In this document: piece by piece, positions 13,040-32,229 of the stretch
Layout of the letters: every line of letters starts with the position of its first letter
How positions within the stretch are numbered: position 1 is the first letter of the stretch
DNA from: an uncultured delta proteobacterium
Lineage (GTDB): Bacteria > Desulfobacterota > Desulfobulbia > Desulfobulbales > Desulfocapsaceae
NCBI GenBank assembly: GCA_903875445.1
Contig: CAIQWD010000097.1
Location: 1-36,576 of the forward strand
Direction: 5' to 3'
Length of the DNA: 36,576 nt
Translations under genes and position numbers: made by a program
Notes under the pieces: model-generated
The model's database searches: none
The model's input: the letters and a program-made list of their open reading frames with translations, nothing else
Told to the model about the DNA's origin: nothing

Positions 13040-14581
13040 CTAGCGCTTGCGCAGCTGCAAACTCAAGCTGGCAAGGTCTGTTCGCACAGCCTCCGGCAGG
13101 TCCCGATATGGCTGCATGACCGTGCCGGGGTAGCCCTCGGTGATAACCGCGAAAGTTCGCGCGAAGGTGAGGGTGTAGCGCGTCAGATCCGGCGGCGCGG
13201 GCTGCAGGGCCCTGCCGAAGGTGCTGAGTCCGCCGCCCTGTCCATGGCAAGTGGCGCAGGTCGTGTCCCAAATCTTCCGGGACTCGGGACCAATGGCTCC
13301 AGGCGTGGTCGCGCGCGCAAACATGGTGAAGCGCCCGTCCAGCTCATCCAGAAGGCTGTCTAGTTTCGCGCGATCGAAGAAGGTAAAATATGGCATGTCC
13401 GAACCCGGCACGCCTTTCAGGAGAATTGCATTGATGTATTCCCTGTCGGCGCGGATGGAAGACAGATCCTCGGCGGGAATCAAAAGCCGCCGCGCGGCCG
13501 GACCGTCTCCCAAGCCGTTCTGCCCATGGCAGGGCCGGCAACTCCCTGCATAGATAGTTTTGCCGTTGTCGTAGACCGTGCGCAGCTTGGTGTTGAAGGC
13601 CGCCAGGGCCTGGGGCTGTTGGACCGCTAGGGCCGCAATTTTGAGGGTACGGTTGGCCAGGGCCTGGGCACGCACTTCCGTGAGTGCGCTGTCTTGGATA
13701 AGCTGACGCGCCGACAGCATAGCTACAAGGACTACGGGCGACAGCAGGAGCACGCGCAGGCGGATGATGCCGAACACAGGCGCGCGGAACAGCCAGATCA
13801 GAGCCATGGCGGCCGATGTGCCGATGGTGACAGCCGCGAGTCCGGGTCCGCCGAGTGTGCCCTTGATCGTGACGAGCAGGGGAACCCCCACCACTACCTG
13901 AAACAGGACGGCTGCGAGAATCCAGCGGCCCAGGCGTTCGCTGCGCTCCGAATTGCCCGTGGCGGAAAAGACGAGATGGAAGATACCGCCGAAGACCACA
14001 GCCGCGCCCAGGATGTGCAGATAACGGAAGATCCAGTGCATCAGGTAGCCGCTGTCCGAGGCCGGGCCCTGTGAGGCCACCTGGGCCCAGAAGGCCGGCC
14101 GCTCCATGAGTGACAGCGCACCGGTGAAGATCGCCGGCACGGTAAGCAGGGCGCAAAGCCCGACTACGCCGAACAGCAAGTGCAACAAGGGCCGTGTGCC
14201 AAGCTTGTGCCCAAAAGCATCAATACTCAAAAAAGCCACAATGAGCAGCGGGATAACCGCCAACCAGGCATAGGCATAAAGCCCCGTGGCCGTGAAAAAG
14301 GCATCGGAATAATAGACCTGAATCACCAGCAGGGGGGCCACACCGAGAACCACGGCGAGACTCTTGAGACCCAGGTGCGACTCCACCACCTTCTTGTTCC
14401 AAGGTTGCTGTTCTGGATTACCCAAAAACCAAGCCTCCAGAAAAGAGTACAGGCCAATCATGGCCGTACCCAGCATGAGCAGCACGAAAAGCAGGTGCAA
14501 CCCGAAGGTGACGAAAAGCATGCCGCGCAGCCAATGCTCCGGCAAAGGCAGCGCTAGGAACAGATCCTCCCAAGGCTTCAT
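13040..14581 (-). CDS. Membrane cytochrome with two C-terminal haem c domains (bd-like module, subunit 2)
   Basis: 513 residues. The first 290 form about eight membrane helices with several histidines suited to haem b or quinone sites (ESHLGLKSLAVVLGVAPL with His69; MHWIFRYLHILG with His182 and His189; His202). Two cytochrome c domains follow, CRPCH (348-352, candidate distal Met396 in SDMPYF) and CATCH (442-446, candidate Met489 in TVMQPY). The fold resembles the uncharacterised bd-oxidase-like membrane cytochromes fused to haem c that are known from Nitrospira and Geobacter relatives. It overlaps the upstream CydA-like gene by ATGA and has its own ribosome site (GGAGAAGAAG), so the two products probably form one complex. 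It is last in the operon. Confidence 0.78.
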   Translation of the reverse strand: MKPWEDLFLALPLPEHWLRGMLFVTFGLHLLFVLLMLGTAMIGLYSFLEAWFLGNPEQQPWNKKVVESHLGLKSLAVVLGVAPLLVIQVYYSDAFFTATGLYAYAWLAVIPLLIVAFLSIDAFGHKLGTRPLLHLLFGVVGLCALLTVPAIFTGALSLMERPAFWAQVASQGPASDSGYLMHWIFRYLHILGAAVVFGGIFHLVFSATGNSERSERLGRWILAAVLFQVVVGVPLLVTIKGTLGGPGLAAVTIGTSAAMALIWLFRAPVFGIIRLRVLLLSPVVLVAMLSARQLIQDSALTEVRAQALANRTLKIAALAVQQPQALAAFNTKLRTVYDNGKTIYAGSCRPCHGQNGLGDGPAARRLLIPAEDLSSIRADREYINAILLKGVPGSDMPYFTFFDRAKLDSLLDELDGRFTMFARATTPGAIGPESRKIWDTTCATCHGQGGGLSTFGRALQPAPPDLTRYTLTFARTFAVITEGYPGTVMQPYRDLPEAVRTDLASLSLQLRKR

Positions 14582-15933
14582 TGCTTCTTCTCCTTCTGTA
14601 ACTGGGGTGCAGGCCGCGAGTCCTTGTTGGCCAAGGAATAGAGATAGGTGGACAAGGTCAGGCGCTCCTGCTCTGTACCGGAGAACGGCGTCATGAAGGG
14701 TACTAAGCTTTCCGTAATGGAGGTGATGGCATTGACCCCTTCCAGAGTACGCCCGGCGATGCGCTGGGTGATGTCGTTAACCCCGCCGATGGTGTGGCAA
14801 ACTGCGCAGTTGGCGTCGAACAAGGCCTGGCCCGAGCGCGCCGCCGGGGCGGTGTCGGTACGGACCTCGCGCACCCAGTGCAATCCAGGGAGTGTACCCT
14901 CCTGTTCGGCGGCAAGGTTGTTTACGAGAGGAATCTGGTTGGCGTACATGTAACCGGGCAGCAGATAGGGCCCACGCACGAACTCGCGCACGCGTTCGAA
15001 CTCGGAGATGAATCCGACGCTCAGAACCAGTGCGGGGATAACCAGGACCCGGCTCAGGGTGGCGCGTTTGGCCACGCCGGCCAGTGCGGCCAGAACGAGG
15101 ACCAGCCCGGCTACCACGTTCAGCAGGATCACCAGCTCCGGCCGCTGGGAAAGAGCCGAGGTGGCCACCGCGAAGATCCAGTGAGTCAGATAGGTTTGCG
15201 GCACGCGGGAGAAGTAGACAACGCCTGCAGCAGCGGTCACGGCAGCGGCCGCGAGGAAGACAAACCCGCACAGGCGCAGTGCACGGCCCCGCTCCTCGGC
15301 CGGACCGTTAAAGGTCCAGGCCGTCCAGGTAAGCGCCACCAAGGCGCCGATACTTATGCCGCCCGCGATGCGCAGGAAGCATTGCGGCACAAAGGTCGGG
15401 TTGAAGTAGGCCTGGACGAAGCTCTGTCCCGAAGGCCAACCGCCCGGCGTGAGCATGAAGCCAAGGATACCGGAGATGAGGATACCGGAGAGCACGGCCA
15501 TGACCACATAACCGCAACCCACGGCGAGAAGCAATCTCGGTCGGGTGTCCACGGTACGATCCCAGAGGGAATAATAGATGAGCAGAAGCACAACCTCCGC
15601 GGTGAAGGCACCCCACTCGATGAACCAGGGCCAGAAGAACAGATGGATGAGTGAGCCGATGCCGCCGGGGGCCAGGGCTCCGGTGATGAACCAGATGCCC
15701 ACGCCTGTGACCGCACCCACCGAGGTCGTGGTCATAACCAACGGGCCGAGCATCGAGCGACCGAGTCTAGTCCAGAAGGTACCCCGCCCAGCCGCACCAA
15801 GGGCCTGGAAAAGCACAACCATGGTTATTGCGCCAATGGCTAGCCCGTGACTGATGAGCACATGCAACACTGCGTCAAGGGCTATGGTCATACCATCGCC
15901 CAGCCCAGGAATGTGCAGAATGGGGAAGTTCAT
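14578..15933 (-). CDS. CydA-like membrane cytochrome with C-terminal haem c domain (subunit 1)
   Basis: 451 residues: about eight or nine membrane helices (20-310) and one C-terminal cytochrome c domain, CAVCH (376-380) with Met414 in PFMTPF as likely distal ligand. The helical part recalls subunit I of cytochrome bd in its early His (LHVLISHG, His24/His30), RLGRSMLGPL and the FIEWGAFTAEV helix with paired glutamates. It lacks the long quinol loop and overall motifs of real CydA, so it should not be called an oxygen-reducing bd oxidase. I expect electron transfer between the quinone pool and periplasmic cytochromes. It follows the TsdA-like gene by 13 bases with a strong AGGAGG site and overlaps the next gene. 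Confidence 0.8.
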   Translation of the reverse strand: MNFPILHIPGLGDGMTIALDAVLHVLISHGLAIGAITMVVLFQALGAAGRGTFWTRLGRSMLGPLVMTTTSVGAVTGVGIWFITGALAPGGIGSLIHLFFWPWFIEWGAFTAEVVLLLIYYSLWDRTVDTRPRLLLAVGCGYVVMAVLSGILISGILGFMLTPGGWPSGQSFVQAYFNPTFVPQCFLRIAGGISIGALVALTWTAWTFNGPAEERGRALRLCGFVFLAAAAVTAAAGVVYFSRVPQTYLTHWIFAVATSALSQRPELVILLNVVAGLVLVLAALAGVAKRATLSRVLVIPALVLSVGFISEFERVREFVRGPYLLPGYMYANQIPLVNNLAAEQEGTLPGLHWVREVRTDTAPAARSGQALFDANCAVCHTIGGVNDITQRIAGRTLEGVNAITSITESLVPFMTPFSGTEQERLTLSTYLYSLANKDSRPAPQLQKEKKQ

Positions 15934-15946
15934 ACCGTTCTGCCTC

Positions 15947-16810
15947 CTATTTTGCTTCGTCGATAGACTTCGGCTTACTCGGTTTTGTGCCGGGGAAATG
16001 CGGCCGGGGCTTGTCGTGGACGAACGCAGCGACGTCCAGTGCCTGCTCCGGGGTCAGATTGGGCGAGGCCTTGGGCATGAAACGCCAGACGAAGGCCGCG
16101 AAGGTTTCCACCCGGTTCATGCCCGCGCCGCTGTTGTATGAGCCGTTGCCCCATACGGCCGGGGCGATGGGTGTGCCAAGCCCGTCACCGCCGTGGCAGC
16201 GGGCGCAGACGTCCTTATACACCGGATCTCCTTTGGCGGCGTCAGGCTTGAGATTCTTGTCCATCTGCGGCAGGCCGATCCAAGGCACTTCCGCATAAAT
16301 GGGGATTCCCTTAGAGATCCACTGGAAATAGGCGGTCAGTGCCTGCATTGTCTCACTGTCGGCCGGAGGCGCGGTGCCGTTCATGCTGCGCTGGAAGCAG
16401 TCCATGGTACGAAGGGTCAGGTCGGTCGAGAAATCGGAACGGCTGCGGTATTGCGGGTATACGGCGGCCACGCCTACCAGGGAGATAGTGTCCTTGCTGC
16501 GACCGCCTTCGAAGTGGCAGTTGGTGCAAGCCAAGTTGTTGCCCACGTATTCGCCGGCGTATTTCTTGGTCTCGGTCATGATCTTGAAGCCGAGCAGCAC
16601 CGCGTCTCTGTTCTCGGCAGGGGCATCCTCCAGGGCCGGAGGATTGAAGACTACGTCAAGAGGTTTGACGATGCCTTGGACTGATCCCCCGGTCAGTGTA
16701 ATGGGTCGGTTCGCCGTGCCTGAAACGTTGAAGAAGAACACGAGCCATGCGGCGATGCACAGCAAAATCACCGTCAAGGCAAGGGCGAAATACAATTTCC
16801 CATGTTTCAT
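15947..16810 (-). CDS. Membrane-anchored TsdA-like dihaem cytochrome c (thiosulfate dehydrogenase/tetrathionate reductase family)
   Basis: 287 residues with an N-terminal anchor helix (6-28) and two haem c sites in the periplasm: CTNCH (95-99) and CARCH (202-206). The blocks NLACTNCHFEGG, SLVGVAAVYPQYRSR, MDCFQRSMNG, PVWG-like AVWGNGSYNSGAGM and DVAAFVHDKPRP are those of TsdA, which interconverts thiosulfate and tetrathionate. Importantly, Cys138 in MDCFQRSMNG corresponds to the unusual cysteine ligand of the active-site haem in TsdA. Met231 and Met245 are candidates for the second haem. TsdA proteins are normally soluble; here the helix tethers it to the membrane beside two bd-like cytochromes encoded in the same operon. 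Start: ATG with GGAG 8 bases upstream. A related non-TsdA dihaem role remains possible. Confidence 0.8.
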   Translation of the reverse strand: MKHGKLYFALALTVILLCIAAWLVFFFNVSGTANRPITLTGGSVQGIVKPLDVVFNPPALEDAPAENRDAVLLGFKIMTETKKYAGEYVGNNLACTNCHFEGGRSKDTISLVGVAAVYPQYRSRSDFSTDLTLRTMDCFQRSMNGTAPPADSETMQALTAYFQWISKGIPIYAEVPWIGLPQMDKNLKPDAAKGDPVYKDVCARCHGGDGLGTPIAPAVWGNGSYNSGAGMNRVETFAAFVWRFMPKASPNLTPEQALDVAAFVHDKPRPHFPGTKPSKPKSIDEAK

Positions 16811-24980: not shown

Positions 24981-25832
24981 TCAACCGAACCGACCGGTGA
25001 CGTAATCTTCCGTGTCCTTATTATCCGGGTTTAAGAAGATTTTACTAGTCGCCCCGAACTCCACCAGTTTACCCATATACATATAGGCGGTGTAGTCGGA
25101 AACTCTGGCCGCTTGCTGCATATTATGGGTAACGATGATGATCGTGATCTTTTCCTTGATAACCCCGATGAGTTCTTCTATTTTCGAACTCGCTATCGGA
25201 TCAAGGGCTGAACAGGGTTCATCCATAAGGAGGACATCGGGTTCCACGGCCAAGGCCCTGGCAATGCAGAGTCGCTGCTGCTGGCCTCCGGACAGTGCCG
25301 TGCCGGGGTAATGAAGTTTATCCTTTACCTCGTCCCAGAGGGCGGCATCCTGCAGGGCCTTGGAAACCCTCCCGGCAATTTCATCTTGGCTGTATCCACC
25401 ATACAAGCGCAAGCCATAGGCAATATTATCGAAGATGCTCATGGGGAAGGGGGTTGGTTTCTGAAAGATCATTCCCACTTTGCGGCGAAGATGCAGCGCC
25501 GGGATGGCCGGATCAAGGATATTGATCCCGTCCATCCAGATTTCGCCCTCGGCCCGGAACCCTTTATAAAGTTCGAACATTCTATTGTAGGTTCGGATAT
25601 GGGTGGATTTGCCGCAGCCGGACGGGCCTATGAATGCCGTCACCCGCTTGTCGGCTATATCCAACGTATTATCAAACAGGGCCTGCTTATCGCTGTAAAA
25701 AAAATTGAGATTACGGATGGAAAGTTTGATCTCGCCCATTTCCTGTTTTTTATGTGGTCCCAATTCCATCCCCTCGTTTTCTCTCTTCATTTCTATTTTC
25801 TTTCGGAATTTTGCCTGTTTGTCCATGATCAT
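24981..25832 (-). CDS. pstB: Phosphate ABC transporter, ATP-binding subunit
   Basis: 283 residues from the ATG at 25832, 2 bases after the pstA stop and with GGGGAGAA about 10 bases upstream; the frame is open further into pstA but that part is a shadow. A charged extension of about 33 residues precedes the ABC domain. Walker A is GPSGCGKST (69-77), signature LSGGQQQR, Walker [13 protein letters not shown], and the H-loop [21 protein letters not shown] is specific for PstB. After Walker A it has HIRTYNRM where LLRTFNRM is usual. It powers high-affinity phosphate uptake through PstC and PstA. Last gene of the pst cluster, convergent with the chemoreceptor. Confidence 0.95.
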
Positions 25833-25834
25833 AT

Positions 25835-26680
25835 TCAAGACGTTCTCCCCTTGGTGCGCAGGACCATTCTCGTGAAGATATTCACGGCCAGGACTGTCAT
25901 AGTGATAAGGAAGGCTGCTCCCCAGGCCATCCTGTGCCAATCATCATAGGGACTCATGGCATAATTGAAGAGGACCACGGTTAGATTGGCCATCGGTTCA
26001 TTCATGCCATGCATCCAATACGGGCTGTTCAGGGCGGTAAAGAGGAGCGGCGCTGTTTCTCCGGCGACCCTGGCGACCGCCAGCATGACTCCGGTCAAAA
26101 TGCCGGAAGACGCCGAACGGTAGATAACATTTATTGTCATCTTCCAGTAAGGCGATCCAAGCGCCAAAGCTGCCTCGCGAATCTCCGCCGGCACCAGCAG
26201 GAGCATTTCCTCGGTTGTTCGACTGACCACCGGCAGCATGATGATTGCAAGAGAAATGGCCCCCGCCCAGCCGGAAAACTGATGCATCGGTTTAACGAGA
26301 ATCAGATAGACAAAGACGCCGATGACAATCGAAGGGGCGGAAACCAGAATATCGGCAAGAAAACGAAGAACATTGCCAAATTTATTGTTCTTGCCGAACT
26401 CGGCGAGATAAGTTCCCGACATCATCCCAAAAGGGACGGCAATGCAGGTGGCAACACCCGTCATCAGGAGGGTTCCAACGATGGCGTTGACCAGTCCTCC
26501 ACCCTTGACACCGGGAGGCGTCGGCAGTTTGCTGAAAAAGTCCCAGTTGATGGCGGCAAAGCCCTTCCAGGCTACATCGCCCAAGATCCAGGTCAACATA
26601 AACAGTCCGGCAACTGCGGCAAGACTCGATAGGGTCAGGACTATGGAATTAGTGAGTTTTCTTCGGGTGAGTCGGGTCAT
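25835..26680 (-). CDS. pstA: Phosphate ABC transporter permease A
   Basis: 281 residues beginning MTRLTRRK, from the ATG at 26680, which overlaps the pstC stop by one base (TAATG). Six membrane helices, with a periplasmic segment after TM1 ([24 protein letters not shown]) that is a hallmark of PstA, and a coupling loop [34 protein letters not shown] and the C-terminal [16 protein letters not shown] are also family signatures. A GGAGGG sequence precedes the start. Works as a heterodimer with PstC. Confidence 0.95.
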
Positions 26681-27603
26681 TATGCCCTCCCTGCCTGACT
26701 GCGGCGAAGCCAGTACTGCGCCAGGCTCAGTATAATCAGGGTGATCAAAAACAGCACCAATCCCAATTCGATTAAAGAGGAGAGATAAACCGTGCCATCC
26801 GCCTCGGTAAATTCGTTGGCAAGAGTCGAGGCAATCGAGTTGCCCGGGGAGAATAAAGACCAGGAGAGATGGTAGGCATTGCCGATAACAAAGGTTACCG
26901 CCATGGTCTCGCCCAGCGCTCGTCCCATGCCGAGAAAGATGGCCCCGGCAATACCCTTTCTGCCGTAGGGAATCATGATATCCCTGACCACCTCCCAGGT
27001 AGTGCCGCCAAGGCCGTAAGCGGCCTCCTTCAAAGGTTGCGGTACCATTAAAAACACATCCCGGGCCACCGAGGAGATAAAGGGAATGATCATGAGGGTC
27101 AGAACAAGACTGGCAGTCAACATGCCGATGCCCATGGAGGGACCTGAAAACAGCGGAAGAAATCCAAGAGTGGTTTTCAGAAAAGGCTGGACATAATCGG
27201 CCATCAAAGGTCCCAGCACAAATAATCCCCACATGCCGTAAACGATGGAGGGTATTGCCGCCAACAGTTCAATAGCAGTGCCGAAGGGTGCCCGCAACCA
27301 ATGGGGTGCCAGTTCCGCCAGAAACAAGGCAATCCCCAGGCTGATTGGGATAGCAAACAACAAGGCAAGAAAGGTGGAAAGCAGAGTGCCGACAATCGGG
27401 ATCAAAGCTCCGAAATTATCCTTAACGGGATTCCAGGATGTGTTGAAAAGAAAAGAAAAACCGAATTTTTCAAGAGAAGGCTGAGATTGGTTCCAAAGTA
27501 CCAGAAGGATCGCAACAAAGATCACAGCAATACCTGAAGCAAAAGAGGCAGTCAGGCCACGGAAAATAAGGTCACCCCAGATTTTGGTTTGTTTCATCTT
27601 CAT
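26680..27603 (-). CDS. pstC: Phosphate ABC transporter permease C
   Basis: 307 residues with six membrane helices. FGFSFLFNTSWNPVKDNFGALIPIVGTLLST after TM1, the AIPSIVYGMWGLFVLGP segment and the coupling loop PQPLKEAAYGLGGTTWEVVRDIMIP are characteristic of PstC, as is RALGETMAVTFVIGN. It is translated from the same transcript as pstS, 45 bases downstream, and overlaps pstA by one base. A second ATG two codons in is an equally possible start; neither has a strong ribosome site. Confidence 0.95.
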   Translation of the reverse strand: MKMKQTKIWGDLIFRGLTASFASGIAVIFVAILLVLWNQSQPSLEKFGFSFLFNTSWNPVKDNFGALIPIVGTLLSTFLALLFAIPISLGIALFLAELAPHWLRAPFGTAIELLAAIPSIVYGMWGLFVLGPLMADYVQPFLKTTLGFLPLFSGPSMGIGMLTASLVLTLMIIPFISSVARDVFLMVPQPLKEAAYGLGGTTWEVVRDIMIPYGRKGIAGAIFLGMGRALGETMAVTFVIGNAYHLSWSLFSPGNSIASTLANEFTEADGTVYLSSLIELGLVLFLITLIILSLAQYWLRRSQAGRA

Positions 27604-27648
27604 AAGTTGGCAGTAATTCCAGGCCTGAACTTGGGATTTATGTGTTGA

Positions 27649-28701
27649 TTATTGCCAGATTGCTTTGCCTTCCTTATCCTTCAGATCTTTCTGCCAGGTC
27701 ATCTCCACCATTTTCACGACCTCGGCCGGCATCGGCACATAGTCGAGAGCCAAAGCGGCCTTGCCGCCATGTTGATAACTCCAGGCAAAAAACTTCAAAA
27801 CCTCTTTCGCCTGAGTTGCATTATCCTGGGTCTTATAAAGAAGTATGAAAGAGGCTCCGGTGATCGGCCATGAGTTTGCACCCGGTTGATCGGTCAGGAC
27901 CATGTAATATCCTTCTGCATGGGCCCAATCGGCACCGGAGGCGGCTGCCTGGAAATTTTCGGCGGTGGGCGCGACATATTTTCCATCGTGGTTCTTCAGC
28001 ATCACCGAAGTCATCTTGTTCTGCAGGGCGTAGGCATACTCGACATACCCGATGGCACCGTCAACCTTATCGACGAAAGCGGCAACGCCCTCATTGCCTT
28101 TTCCGCCAAGACCGACAGGCCATTCAACCGATGTCTTGCTGCCGACTTTTTCGCTCCACTCTTTGCTCAACTTTGTCAAATAATTGGTGAAGATCCAGGT
28201 AGTTCCAGAGCCATCGGCGCGATGGACAACGGTGATGTCCTCAGCGGGAAGGGATAAACCAGAGTTTTCGGCCACAATCTTGGGGTCGTTCCATTTGCTG
28301 ATCTTCCCCATAAAGATATCGGCAAGGATATCGCCCGACAACTTCATCTGACCGGATGCAATCCCTTTGATGTGGACTACCGGAACGACACCACCCATAA
28401 TCATCGGAAACTGCATCAGGCCGGCTTCGTTCAGTTCTTTTGGTTCAAGGGGGGCATCCGATGCTCCGAAATCGACAGTTTTTGCCTTGATCTGCTTGAT
28501 GCCGCCACCCGATCCGATGGACTGATAATTCAGGCGAACACCGGTTTCCTGATTGTAATCGTAGGCCCATTTGCCATAGGCGGGATACGGGAAAGTTGCC
28601 CCCGCTCCGGTGATGGTGGTTTCTGCCTGGCAGGGGCCGGAAAATACGGCAACTGCCGCAGCGGTTAGAAAAAGTGTGCTGATGATTCTCATTTTTTGCA
28701 T
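27649..28701 (-). CDS. pstS: Phosphate ABC transporter, periplasmic phosphate-binding protein
   Basis: 350 residues with a signal peptide ending GPCQA before ETTITGAGATFPYPAY. The phosphate-contacting motifs are visible: GAGATFP near the N-terminus, SIGSGGGIKQI, DFGASDAPL, and RADGSGTTWIFTNYL with the Arg-Asp-x-Ser-Gly-Thr cluster, followed by GNEGVAAFV and GAIGYVEYAYA. This is the full PstS (not the shorter PstS-like) form. Ribosome site AAAGGAGA upstream. A pair of direct repeats with 11-base period lies 96-113 bp upstream (28797-28814) and may be a PhoB box. It captures phosphate and hands it to PstCA. Confidence 0.96.
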   Translation of the reverse strand: MQKMRIISTLFLTAAAVAVFSGPCQAETTITGAGATFPYPAYGKWAYDYNQETGVRLNYQSIGSGGGIKQIKAKTVDFGASDAPLEPKELNEAGLMQFPMIMGGVVPVVHIKGIASGQMKLSGDILADIFMGKISKWNDPKIVAENSGLSLPAEDITVVHRADGSGTTWIFTNYLTKLSKEWSEKVGSKTSVEWPVGLGGKGNEGVAAFVDKVDGAIGYVEYAYALQNKMTSVMLKNHDGKYVAPTAENFQAAASGADWAHAEGYYMVLTDQPGANSWPITGASFILLYKTQDNATQAKEVLKFFAWSYQHGGKAALALDYVPMPAEVVKMVEMTWQKDLKDKEGKAIWQ

Positions 28702-28796
28702 TTTACTATTCTCCTTTGAGGAATAATGATTGTGCTTGAAGGAACCGTTACGATTCGAAGCACATACGAAGACAAGGCCAATTTATGCAGTCTGTA

Positions 28797-28814
28797 TTAG
28801 AAAATTGTTAGAAA
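28797..28814. promoter_or_regulatory. Candidate Pho box upstream of pstS
   Basis: TTAGAAA-N4-TTAGAAA: two identical 7-base direct repeats exactly 11 bases apart, in the only gap between phoU and pstS. PhoB dimers bind two direct repeats with 11-base period, so spacing fits, although the bases differ from the enterobacterial CTGTCAT consensus. Confidence 0.35.
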
Positions 28815-28847
28815 CAGGTTAATATTTCAATTGTGGGCAATCGTCGC

Positions 28848-29507
28848 TTACTGGGCCCGGGTGATGGTCCCCTCAACAAGATAGATGACTTCTTCCGCGA
28901 TGTTCACGGCTCGATCGGCAATGCGCTCAAGATGGCGACCGAGGAGAAACGTGTTGATATGGTAACCGGGGTGTTCCGGGTCATTTTTAATTCTAATTTT
29001 TATGTCTTCGTAGCAGCGGTCTTTCAAGGCATCGACCTCGTCATCATCGACAAAGAGTGACCTGGCGAGCGCAGCGTCGCCCCCAATCAAGGCATCGATG
29101 CTTTTCTTCAGCATGAGCACCGCTTTCTCACTCATTTTTGAGAAATCGTAGGAAACCGCCCCGGCATGTTTGAATTTCGAGATATTCTGCACACGTCTGG
29201 CGATGTTCACGGCGATATCGGCGATTCTCTCCAACTCACTATTGATCTTGATGACGGTAATCAAAAACCTGAGATCCTTGGCGACCGGCTGGTGAAGCGC
29301 AAGGATCTTCAGGCAGTCCTCCTCTATCTCTATCTCCAGATCGTCCACTTCATAGTCGGAGAGAATGAGGGCCTGAATCATCTCCCGGTCTTTGCTCTCA
29401 ATTATCTGTGCCGCTTTGCGGACACGCTCTTCAACCATGGCGCTCATTGTCAGCAGTTTTTTATTGAGCTTGGTAAGTTCGTGGTGGAAGGTGAAGTGAT
29501 GTTCCAT
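28848..29507 (-). CDS. phoU: Phosphate-uptake regulator PhoU
   Basis: 219 residues from the ATG at 29507 (MEHHFTFHHELTKLNKKL), with AAGGA upstream; the open frame extends further but codes nothing PhoU-like. Two three-helix PhoU repeats are seen, each with an acidic E/D-x3-D metal-cluster helix (VDDLEIEIEEDCLKIL, VDALKDRCYEDIKI) followed by an R-x-L/x-E-R-I-A-D motif (SELERIADIAVNIA, RHLERIADRAVNIAEEVIYL). PhoU restrains the Pst transporter and the PhoR kinase when phosphate is ample. Here it is upstream of pstS, whereas in E. coli it is at the end of the operon. The gap of 146 bp before pstS may hold a second promoter. Confidence 0.94.
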   Translation of the reverse strand: MEHHFTFHHELTKLNKKLLTMSAMVEERVRKAAQIIESKDREMIQALILSDYEVDDLEIEIEEDCLKILALHQPVAKDLRFLITVIKINSELERIADIAVNIARRVQNISKFKHAGAVSYDFSKMSEKAVLMLKKSIDALIGGDAALARSLFVDDDEVDALKDRCYEDIKIRIKNDPEHPGYHINTFLLGRHLERIADRAVNIAEEVIYLVEGTITRAQ

Positions 29508-29834
29508 TATGCAAAAATTCCTTGATCGGTTAGGGTTGATATTTGCTGCAGGACAAAAGTGGCGCATTCCAGAGCTGCATGAGAAGATAGATGAGAATTG
29601 TTTGTAAATGATTAGGGAAATATTAATATTCAATTAAATTGCTGGGAGGGGATTGCGGTCAGGTGAAAAATGGTACACGATACAGGCGGAGTACACAAAG
29701 CACGCTGTATCTCACAGCAGCTCCGGAAATAACCAGTTGGAACGAGAGTTCCCATTATCTGAAAACTCCCGCGATGTTGGTGCTATCCAGCAAATCGAAG
29801 CTGCAAGTTTTGGCATTCTTTGCCGACATACCGG
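29508..29834. other. Intergenic region between the dksA-like gene and phoU
   Basis: About 330 bases without a recognisable gene. The part nearest phoU is A+T-rich, with a near-palindromic AATATTAATATT at about 29617-29630, and is the likely phoU promoter. A small stem CCGGT-CAGA-ACCGG overlaps the end of the dksA-like gene (about 29830-29843). Open frames here show no family resemblance. Confidence 0.4.
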
Positions 29835-30306: not shown

Positions 30307-32229
30307 TTACTTGAGCCAGACTTCAACCCGGCGGTTCTTTTCCTTGCCGGAGGTGGACAGATTTGTTGCAACCGGAAGCTCCTCACCGGCACTTGCTATT
30401 TGTTGGACGACAATACCCCTGGAACGAAGTTGTACGGCCACTGTTTCGGCTCTAAATTTCGCCAGTTTCAAGTTCACATCGTAGTCACCGGCGTTGTCGG
30501 CAAAACCGGCCAGAATAATTTTCCGATCAAGTCTCTCTTTGAGAAAATCAACAACCCTGGTCAGGTCACGTTCACCTCTATTGTCGAGCGTCACCTTGCC
30601 GGTGTTGAAGCGAAAATTGAGGGAAAGACGCTGAGCGTTATCAGTGGCTTTGAGATAATCCTGGACCATTGCGATGTTTTTTATTTGGGCCTGATCAATT
30701 TTTTCGCTATAAAATGTTTTGATGTTCATGTCCACAAAATCGATTTTATTGGTTATTTCTTGTCCCTGCCGGGAATGTACATATTCAATAAAATCTCGCA
30801 CATGATTGTTCTTCGGATAGGTTGCCGTGTACAAGTACAAACGCCTGGCAATCGGATAATCCTCGGTGGCAACGGTAAAGAAGCTCGGGAAAATAGGTTT
30901 GGCGCCGGTGTCGGCTACGGCTATTGCCTTCGCTTTGTCAATACTTGGCAAACTGGTAAATCCTATGCCGAAGGGATCGCGGGAAACCTGTTCCGACAGC
31001 TCCGGATTCGATTCAAACCTTTTAATGCCTTGCTTCAGCTCCAATTTATCGAGGACAATGGATTTGAAAGTATCGTAGGTTCCCGAATTATCATCTCTTG
31101 CATAAACCGTTATCTCTCCTGGTACTCCTCCCACTTGGGACCAGTTGGTGGTTTTACCGGAGAAGATGTCAGCAAGCTGCTGCATGTTCAACGTATCGAT
31201 TTTGTTACCCTTGTTGACAATAACTGCAATGCCGTCAAGGGCAATGACATGTTCATTAGTTGGGGCGGTCATTTCACCGAATTTGTTGAGTTCGACAACC
31301 TCCTTTTCCTTTATTTTCCGGGATGCCATGCCGATTTCGCATTGTTCCTCCGCGAGACCTTTAAAGCCGGTGGTCGAGCCATGGGCATGAATCTCCACCA
31401 CCTTGATGGAATCTTTGAATTTTGCCTTGATAACGACCTCATTGGCTTGTTTCCCAGGTAGCTGTTCGACCTTTTCAGCCCCAAGTATGGTGGTCAGGTA
31501 GCCGCTGATCAGTGCAGGGGCAAGCTTTGCCCCTATAGTATTTGAGCCGTGCAGGCGAAGGATAGTTTCTTCGGGAAGGCTTTCTTTCCCCTCAGTTTTT
31601 ACCAGAGGTCCGATGGAAATCGATTGGTTGGTCGCCGCAGGCTTGGCAGTTGGCTGTTCAGCGACAGCTGATGCTTGCGTAGTTTTTGGGGAGGTGACGG
31701 CAAAAGCCGGGACGGGTAATCTGTCGATGAAATTTAAAACCAGCATAAGAACCGCTATGGCGCAAATCGGCAGGATAGTGGTCAAGGCCAGGAGGGTTCG
31801 TTTTCTCCTTACCGGTATCTTGGTGGGAGTCTGCCCGATTGGATTGTCAGATTGCTGCATAATATTACCTGACCGTTCAGAAGCCTCTGTCTCGGATGTG
31901 GAGTTTTCGACGCGGGCGGCAGCCTCAATAAGGAGAGAGCGATAATCCTTGTCGATATTCGGCAACGGCAGTTTCTTTATTTTCACCTCTCTGAACGAGC
32001 CTTTTTTCCAGGAAAGGATCTGACATAAGGCGTCAATTCCCAGGAGCCTGTCCTGAGAGGAAAAAATTATTTTGCCTTGATCGATGAAAATCAACCCTTT
32101 CTCGCCCTGCTGGGTAACGCGGATGGCCTTGGTAGAGTTTTTCATGCAGATCAACTGGATATAGTCTTCCAGACTGATATCACTCAGGACACCAAAAAAA
32201 CCTGTATCACCTACGTCTGTTGTTTTCAT
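30307..32229 (-). CDS. Fusion protein: DUF4388-like domain, membrane helix, phosphate-type binding domain, OmpA domain
   Basis: 640 residues in four parts. Residues 1-105 resemble the DUF4388/PATAN module (GVLSDISLEDYIQLICM, GLIFIDQGKIIFSS), usually found in cytoplasmic signalling proteins. RRKR and a hydrophobic helix (145-167) follow, then a Thr/Ala-rich linker. Residues 222-500 form a PstS-like type 2 periplasmic binding domain with LHGSNTIGAKLAP, HGSTTGFKGL, EIGMASRKIKE and RDDNSGTYDTFKSIV. Residues about 535-640 are an OmpA-type peptidoglycan-binding domain (NFRFNTGKVTLDNRGERDL, AGFADNAGD, NRRVEVWLK). Topology by the positive-inside rule places DUF4388 in the cytoplasm and the rest in the periplasm. 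It may be a wall-anchored phosphate or anion sensor rather than a transporter component. Located directly upstream of the dksA-like gene. Confidence 0.82.
   Translation of the reverse strand: MKTTDVGDTGFFGVLSDISLEDYIQLICMKNSTKAIRVTQQGEKGLIFIDQGKIIFSSQDRLLGIDALCQILSWKKGSFREVKIKKLPLPNIDKDYRSLLIEAAARVENSTSETEASERSGNIMQQSDNPIGQTPTKIPVRRKRTLLALTTILPICAIAVLMLVLNFIDRLPVPAFAVTSPKTTQASAVAEQPTAKPAATNQSISIGPLVKTEGKESLPEETILRLHGSNTIGAKLAPALISGYLTTILGAEKVEQLPGKQANEVVIKAKFKDSIKVVEIHAHGSTTGFKGLAEEQCEIGMASRKIKEKEVVELNKFGEMTAPTNEHVIALDGIAVIVNKGNKIDTLNMQQLADIFSGKTTNWSQVGGVPGEITVYARDDNSGTYDTFKSIVLDKLELKQGIKRFESNPELSEQVSRDPFGIGFTSLPSIDKAKAIAVADTGAKPIFPSFFTVATEDYPIARRLYLYTATYPKNNHVRDFIEYVHSRQGQEITNKIDFVDMNIKTFYSEKIDQAQIKNIAMVQDYLKATDNAQRLSLNFRFNTGKVTLDNRGERDLTRVVDFLKERLDRKIILAGFADNAGDYDVNLKLAKFRAETVAVQLRSRGIVVQQIASAGEELPVATNLSTSGKEKNRRVEVWLK

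Follow-up and report, generated by a model that had tools for sequence, protein, structure and literature searches.

Known Systems Related to the Operon

Dihaem cytochromes of the TsdA type, known from A. vinosum and C. jejuni, are the closest described relatives of one product of the operon analyzed here. This operon lies in a stretch of 36,576 nucleotides from an uncultured delta proteobacterium of the Desulfocapsaceae (contig CAIQWD010000097.1, herein referred to as the window) and encodes a TsdA-like protein followed by two membrane proteins, for which the names BdA and BdB were coined in this analysis. The TsdA encoded here shares the dihaem domains, the catalytic Cys ligand, and the equivalents of Arg109, Arg119, and Ser127 with the A. 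vinosum and C. jejuni enzymes but differs from them by an N-terminal anchor, a well-supported branch for operon-linked TsdAs, and neighboring genes related to cytochrome bd. In TsdB and in the TsdBA fusion of M. purpuratum (PDB 5lo9), reportedly described by Kurth in 2016, extra c haems beside TsdA accept electrons, whereas here the extra c haems belong to the tails of bd-like subunits in the membrane.

The OR-N and OR-C types of the cytochrome bd superfamily, said to have been defined by Murali in 2021, resemble BdA and BdB in the CydA-like fold, the oxygen-site residues, the lack of a recognizable canonical quinol site, and the presence of two bd-like subunits. In contrast to them, both subunits here carry c haems and TsdA is the apparent donor; this comparison was made by description. 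Enzymes of the OR-N type are treated in two genome papers (PMC10839748; PMC12342949). Thiosulfate oxidation by TsdA together with SoxB is known for Erythrobacter flavus (PMC7608252). TsdA and a SoxB-like gene also occur together in some of the loci found here, but with bd-like genes in the operon and with a diverged SoxB-like copy without an obvious signal peptide.

We propose, at about even chances, that the operon encodes a membrane-bound thiosulfate:oxygen oxidoreductase, in which TsdA would feed an oxidase of the bd superfamily. No description of the operon was found in the titles and abstract beginnings of the literature matches listed.

Identification of TsdA

The three genes of the window are tightly linked, with a 13-bp gap between tsdA and bdA and a 4-bp overlap between bdA and bdB, and AGGAG precedes the starts of both BdA and BdB. 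In total, five CXXCH motifs were found: two in TsdA, one in BdA, and two in BdB. The open reading frames (ORFs), their spacing, and the motif positions thus agree with the first-pass annotation of this DNA, which had reported five such motifs over three linked genes.

Its domain, its active-site residues, and the solved structures closest to it all identify the window protein as a TsdA. The Pfam domain SoxA-TsdA_cyt-c was detected with an E value of 2e-11, and the best solved relative was the thiosulfate dehydrogenase of A. vinosum (PDB 4wq7, E 8e-41). Four residues of the latter enzyme, Arg109, Arg119, Cys123, and Ser127, were shown to be important (PMC4423706); R124, R134, C138, and S142 of the window protein align with them. 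An identity as SoxA was rejected, since the NCBIfam SoxA model scored 41 bits, well under the required 110. The only hydrophobic segment of the window protein, at its N-terminus, is likely an anchor and not a cleaved signal, since it can be aligned in relatives and its F26 and F27 are invariant in 9 of 9 relative rows. The Pfam match, the 4wq7 match, the active-site residues, and this segment all support the earlier claim of a membrane-tethered TsdA; clustering with non-sulfur dihaem cytochromes was not observed.

The alignment of TsdAs comprised 54 rows, among them three second copies and six TsdAs not linked to the operon; some genomes are present twice. Cys138 was kept in all rows, Arg134 and Ser142 in 48 each, and Arg124 in 45. 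All three substrate residues are changed in the Desulfovibrio-type operon TsdAs of loci L036, L037, and L071–L073, in which the catalytic Cys is kept, and also in the second TsdA copy of locus L060. Since Arg, Arg, and Ser are all replaced there, the substrate of these proteins may differ from that of the thiosulfate/tetrathionate enzymes.

A tree was built from 45 of the 54 rows, after removal of identical and short ones; 37 of them are operon-linked, including L057_2, the second piece of the L057 TsdA, and 8 come from outside the operon. A branch supported at 100/99 separates all 37 operon-linked TsdAs from the enzymes of A. vinosum and M. purpuratum and from TsdA domains fused to MauG/peroxidase-like parts; a long-branch warning applies to M. 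purpuratum, A. vinosum, L074, L060_2, and L057_2. The window TsdA pairs with that of L038, a bin of the Desulfovibrionaceae (support 100/99).

Several TsdAs have a variant architecture. The operon TsdA of L047 (L047:868-2223, 452 amino acids (aa)) has an extra C-terminal c-haem domain with a third CXXCH. The haem-bearing stretch is missing from the operon TsdA of L049, and the TsdA of L057 is split over two frames; BdA and BdB remain in both loci. In L075 and L076, the TsdA domain lies behind a MauG/cytochrome c peroxidase-like part, with four CXXCH motifs each. The second TsdAs of L046, L056, and L059 are similar fusions (such fusions have ~640–750 aa; among these three, the domain scan covered L046). 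A presumed fusion of TsdA with BdA in L043 and L050 was rejected, a stop lying between the frames.

BdA and BdB as Members of the Cytochrome bd Superfamily

Pfam detected only the c domains in BdA and BdB. For the AlphaFold models (mean predicted local distance difference test score (pLDDT) of 75 for BdA and 88 for BdB), the best 18 matching PDB chains of BdA and the best 19 of BdB were all bd-oxidase subunits. BdA also matched CydA of 5doq by sequence (E 1e-7), and a profile of 42 BdA-type sequences aligned with a set of 12 CydA sequences over the N-terminal half (E 1e-8). By sequence and predicted fold, BdA thus belongs to the cytochrome bd superfamily. The BdB profile gave no usable alignment with CydB (E 0.36) or CydA (E 0.02). 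The two membrane partners had been described as bd-like with haem c tails, and this description stands by the predicted folds of both proteins and, for BdA, also by sequence.

For E. coli CydA, we assume the numbering His19, Glu99, Glu107, His186, and Glu445 together with the usual roles of these residues. In BdA, His24, Glu106, Glu113, Glu317, and Arg320 (Table 1) are kept in every one of the 39 distinct sequences (47 rows before de-duplication; L062 included). The motif REFxRGPY around Glu317 resembles AExGRQPW of CydA, which suggests that Glu317 is the equivalent of Glu445. A loss of the oxygen site in BdA, considered when the glutamate of the CydA motif TGxxxEF was read as Glu99, was rejected: that glutamate is presumably Glu74 of the E. 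coli protein, with Trp81 at this place in BdA, and Glu99, located in AIEG, is kept.

Two features of quinol-oxidizing CydAB were tested, the b558 ligand His186 and the Q-loop of subunit I, and BdA fails both. BdA Leu187 aligns with His186, and among the 39 distinct sequences this position is never His, being Leu in 37 and Trp or Ser in the other two. No Q-loop is visible in the BdA or BdB model, in which helix spacing indicates short loops only. A similar lack of the b558 histidine, with short loops only, is described for the OR-N members of the superfamily, which are thought to be fed by cytochrome c (PMC10839748); cytochrome c-fed OR-N enzymes are also assumed in a genome paper (PMC12342949).

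The first-pass annotation had linked the operon to the quinone pool, a claim not borne out by BdA and BdB, with no visible Q-loop, no b558 histidine in BdA, and the oxygen-site residues kept. A quinone site of another kind may exist in these proteins. Its leaning was toward a thiosulfate:quinone oxidoreductase, in which electrons from thiosulfate would reduce the quinone pool. Membrane partners with likely b haems would suit this activity, and thiosulfate:quinone oxidoreductases of the doxDA type do exist. However, besides the retention of oxygen-site residues in place of a Q-loop, energetics count against it: menaquinone has a potential of about -74 mV, and electron transfer to it from thiosulfate would be uphill by ~270 mV. 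The midpoint potential (Em) of the thiosulfate/tetrathionate couple is +198 mV (PMC6879331). We consider this explanation very improbable and the least likely of all.

The b558-type ligands may instead be located in BdB, where His189 and Met288 would resemble the His/Met pair of b558. The likely sixth ligands of the c haems are conserved as well: Met414 of BdA in 21 of 21 sequences and, among the rows reaching each position, Met396 of BdB in 33 of 33 and Met489 in 28 of 28. Met-ligated c haems are usually of high potential.

Table 1. Features of the operon, with positions in the window
Feature	Positions	Strand	Remark
tsdA-like gene	15947..16810	-	287 aa, dihaem, N-terminal membrane anchor
TsdA residues 8-26	16733..16789	-	Hydrophobic, likely anchor segment; single such segment; alignable in relatives
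TsdA haem 1 CXXCH, residues 95-99	16514..16528	-	Catalytic haem
TsdA Cys138	16397..16399	-	Corresponds to Cys123 of A. vinosum TsdA, the catalytic haem ligand
TsdA haem 2 CXXCH, residues 202-206	16193..16207	-	
BdA gene	14578..15933	-	451 aa, CydA-like membrane domain and one c haem
BdA His24	15862..15864	-	Aligned with CydA His19 (profile alignment)
BdA Glu106	15616..15618	-	Aligned with CydA Glu99 (profile alignment)
BdA Glu113	15595..15597	-	Aligned with CydA Glu107 (profile alignment)
BdA Glu317, in REFVRGPY	14983..14985	-	Matched by eye to CydA Glu445 (AExGRQPW motif)
BdA CXXCH, residues 376-380	14794..14808	-	Met414 likely sixth ligand
BdB gene	13040..14581	-	513 aa, bd-like membrane domain and two c haems
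BdB His189	14015..14017	-	Candidate axial ligand of b558-like haem; 34/34, distant family 17/17
BdB Met288	13718..13720	-	Candidate other ligand of this b558-like haem; 34/34, distant family 17/17
BdB first CXXCH, residues 348-352	13526..13540	-	Met396 likely sixth ligand
BdB second CXXCH, residues 442-446	13244..13258	-	Met489 likely sixth ligand

Distribution of the Operon

A scan of a collection of 84,980 species with the BdA alignment, run through two peptide patterns and so able to miss relatives that lack these peptides, yielded 33 loci. In 31 loci, TsdA or part of it precedes BdA in the same orientation; the contig start clips it in L053 and L061. The contig of L064 begins within BdA, which leaves L062, from Bdellovibrionales, as the only locus that truly lacks TsdA. 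BdB was found downstream in 31 loci; the contigs of L052 and L063 end at this place. The loci are titled Desulfovibrio, Bilophila, Desulfogranum, Desulfarculaceae, Nitrospirae, Planctomycetota, Deltaproteobacteria, and others; misbinning is possible for the single bins titled Methanoperedens and Bacteroidetes.

In the class of the window organism, BdA with at least 47% identity was found in 8 of 256 other genomes (several of them overlap the 33-locus scan), with TsdA beside it in all 8 and BdB in 7, the eighth locus lying on a short contig. One genome with the operon, Desulfogranum japonicum DSM 18378 (L035), belongs to the same order as the window genome. Among 297 genomes of the phylum, 13 had a TsdA match with E < 1e-30; this match lies beside BdA in 9 genomes, the window genome included, and the remaining four are two fusions, one unlinked gene, and one fragment. 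In the phylum of L042, the operon was found in 3 of 198 genomes, L042 itself counted. The recurrence of the order TsdA-BdA-BdB across genomes and phyla is more than chance, and the conservation on which the first-pass annotation had made its proposal depend was therefore found.

The operon was found in none of the 14 other genomes sampled from the genus, 9 of which have only the distant BdA family described below and 5 no match. This absence, together with the Desulfovibrionaceae neighbor in the TsdA tree, makes it likely that the window genome gained the operon by gene transfer. The G+C content at third codon positions (GC3) is 0.75–0.76 in the three operon genes against 0.48–0.53 in four genes on the Nramp side. 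On the other flank, transporter genes have a GC3 of 0.63–0.76, so composition alone does not delimit the operon.

The flanking genes were taken as lying outside the operon. A universal stress gene and an Nramp transporter lie downstream in convergent orientation, and a gene for a solute-binding protein, with ABC-transporter genes, lies upstream in divergent orientation. Elsewhere in the window, phosphate-uptake (pst/PhoU-like) genes were recognized by eye at 24981-29633, followed at 30307-32229 by a protein that resembles a PstS-type binding protein and has an OmpA-like end.

Wider Family of bd-Like Pairs

A relative of BdA was found in 143 of the 257 genomes of the window class, mostly with ~30–36% identity in the rows shown, and a BdB-like gene lies beside it in 20 of the 21 such loci examined. 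The five BdA residues named above are kept in 21 of 21 members of this distant family. None of the 17 aligned distant BdB-like sequences has a c-haem tail. Many distant BdA-like frames have 800–1000 aa (L011–L031 in the window class; L118–L127 in the L042 phylum). The BdA-like frames have eight CXXCH motifs in L011, L014, and L118, three in L013, and one in L029; the pairs of L114, L128, and L131, all from the L042 phylum, carry a single c haem, which belongs to BdA. Thus, by these sequences, the haem module attached to a core bd-like pair seems to vary. To our knowledge, no function has been assigned to the distant pairs of L011–L031 and L118–L127.

Genes Adjacent to the Operon

Genes of oxidative sulfur metabolism were found near some copies of the operon and count for a thiosulfate:oxygen oxidoreductase. 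In L042 and L045, the end of BdB is overlapped by a SoxB-like gene; such a gene begins closely after BdB in L055 (seen by eye and clipped by the contig end) and is located 2–3 kb from the operon in L044 and L050. SorA-like sulfite dehydrogenase genes were found in L045 and L048, with 383 and 525 bits against a cut-off of 600, and clustering placed another in L050. Additionally, a DsrE-family gene adjoins the operon in L046, and a TauE-type gene was found in L055. In most other loci, no sulfur or oxygen gene was seen repeatedly beside the operon.

A COX1-family gene lies beside the operon of L049 and, seen by eye only, beside the related bd-like pair of L114. These genes, and the MauG/peroxidase-TsdA fusions near the operons of L046, L056, and L059, could also point to another role, in which the bd-like pair would reduce a different small acceptor such as nitric oxide or peroxide, or mainly scavenge oxygen, with TsdA as the electron source. 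Nothing speaks for this directly, and the residues kept are those we take to be tied to oxygen reduction in CydA; such a role is improbable.

Two loci contain further candidates for quinol oxidation. In L060, a single frame of 1152 aa (L060:2721-6981) upstream of BdA-BdB joins a cytochrome b, three c domains, and TsdA; the second TsdA, behind this frame, has lost its haem-2 CXXCH. In L062, a cluster similar to alternative complex III, called from NrfD and iron-sulfur/molybdopterin-domain genes by Pfam and otherwise by eye, lies ~2.7 kb from the TsdA-less BdA-BdB. In these loci, other complexes can oxidize quinol, which counts for a thiosulfate:oxygen oxidoreductase.

Proposed Function and Direction of Electron Flow

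In the proposed thiosulfate:oxygen oxidoreductase, the Cys/His haem of the tethered TsdA would be the periplasmic site at which two thiosulfates are joined to tetrathionate. The two electrons would leave TsdA by its haem 2, reach the three c haems of the BdB and BdA tails, and pass from there to the b558-like haem in BdB (His189/Met288), and then to a two-haem site in BdA (His24, Glu106, Glu113, and Glu317), at which oxygen would be reduced with cytoplasmic protons. Energy would be conserved without passage through quinone. We infer the assembly of the three proteins into a single complex, the membrane haems, the electron path, oxygen as acceptor, and the direction of flow. No quinol site was found, an oxygen-type two-haem site is kept, the c haems have likely Met ligands, and oxidative sulfur genes lie near some copies; a path that leads from thiosulfate to oxygen explains this most economically. 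Donation of electrons to an oxidase by a relative of TsdA has a precedent in CccC of C. jejuni, which serves a cb oxidase (PMC5146829).

Several observations weigh against this proposal. The hosts named in the 33-locus scan belong mostly to sulfate-reducing or other anaerobic groups. BdA relatives without TsdA are common in the window class and have the same residues, so these residues need not mean oxygen. The match of Glu317 with Glu445 was made only by eye, the alignment of BdB with CydA is weak, and the mean pLDDT of the BdA model is low. Among the neighbors, the SoxB-like gene of L042 (L042:9942-11387) reached 352 bits against a cut-off of 550, no obvious signal peptide was seen in the SoxB-like protein directly behind the operon, and in L062 five small ORFs separate BdA from the alternative complex III-like genes, which point in the direction away from it.

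The main rival is a menaquinol:tetrathionate reductase serving anaerobic respiration: BdA and BdB would oxidize menaquinol at a site other than a Q-loop and send electrons outward via the b and c haems to TsdA, which would reduce tetrathionate. Here the flow would be downhill, from about -74 mV to +198 mV, and the hosts are mostly anaerobes. The window genome has a canonical CydA elsewhere and no second TsdA; its dsrA and mqnC both score above cut-off, and with these genes and its membership in the same order as Desulfogranum japonicum, the window organism is probably a sulfate reducer with menaquinone. TsdA is bidirectional, and the C. jejuni enzyme is a tetrathionate reductase (PMC5146829); the haem-2 motif of the latter is Asn-Met. 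The same motif was found in 31 of the 54 TsdA rows, outside rows included, and the cytochrome b-c-TsdA frame of L060 would also suit a flow from quinol to tetrathionate. However, the motif is Phe-Met in the window TsdA, and Asn-Met is also found in the TsdBA of M. purpuratum, which is biased toward oxidation (PMC5146829). With Asn-Met in enzymes of both biases, the motif is silent on direction and was dropped as a marker of it. That no quinol site was found and that BdA lacks the b558 histidine speak against this rival too, and the SorA-like and SoxB-like neighbors point to oxidation in their loci. A menaquinol:tetrathionate reductase is thus unlikely, though worth retaining.

Implications for Sulfate-Reducing Bacteria

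Somewhat short of even chances, we suggest a broader scenario, in which the operon would encode a dedicated thiosulfate oxidase with a bd-superfamily core that bypasses quinones and soluble cytochrome c and that reached various sulfate reducers and Nitrospirota by gene transfer. The BdA-BdB pair would then belong to a larger family whose bd-like pairs exchange haem modules, such as TsdA with three tail haems, an eight-haem tail, or a single c haem. If true, this suggests that bd-like cores swap haem modules.

No earlier case of a TsdA wired to a bd-type oxidase is known to us; the present one, if true, would be the first. Sulfate reducers reportedly oxidize sulfur compounds with oxygen, as said to have been described by Dannenberg in 1992. 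Judging from these genes, some sulfate-reducing bacteria may be able to oxidize thiosulfate with oxygen, and the operon would be a directly testable candidate for their oxygen-linked sulfur oxidation.

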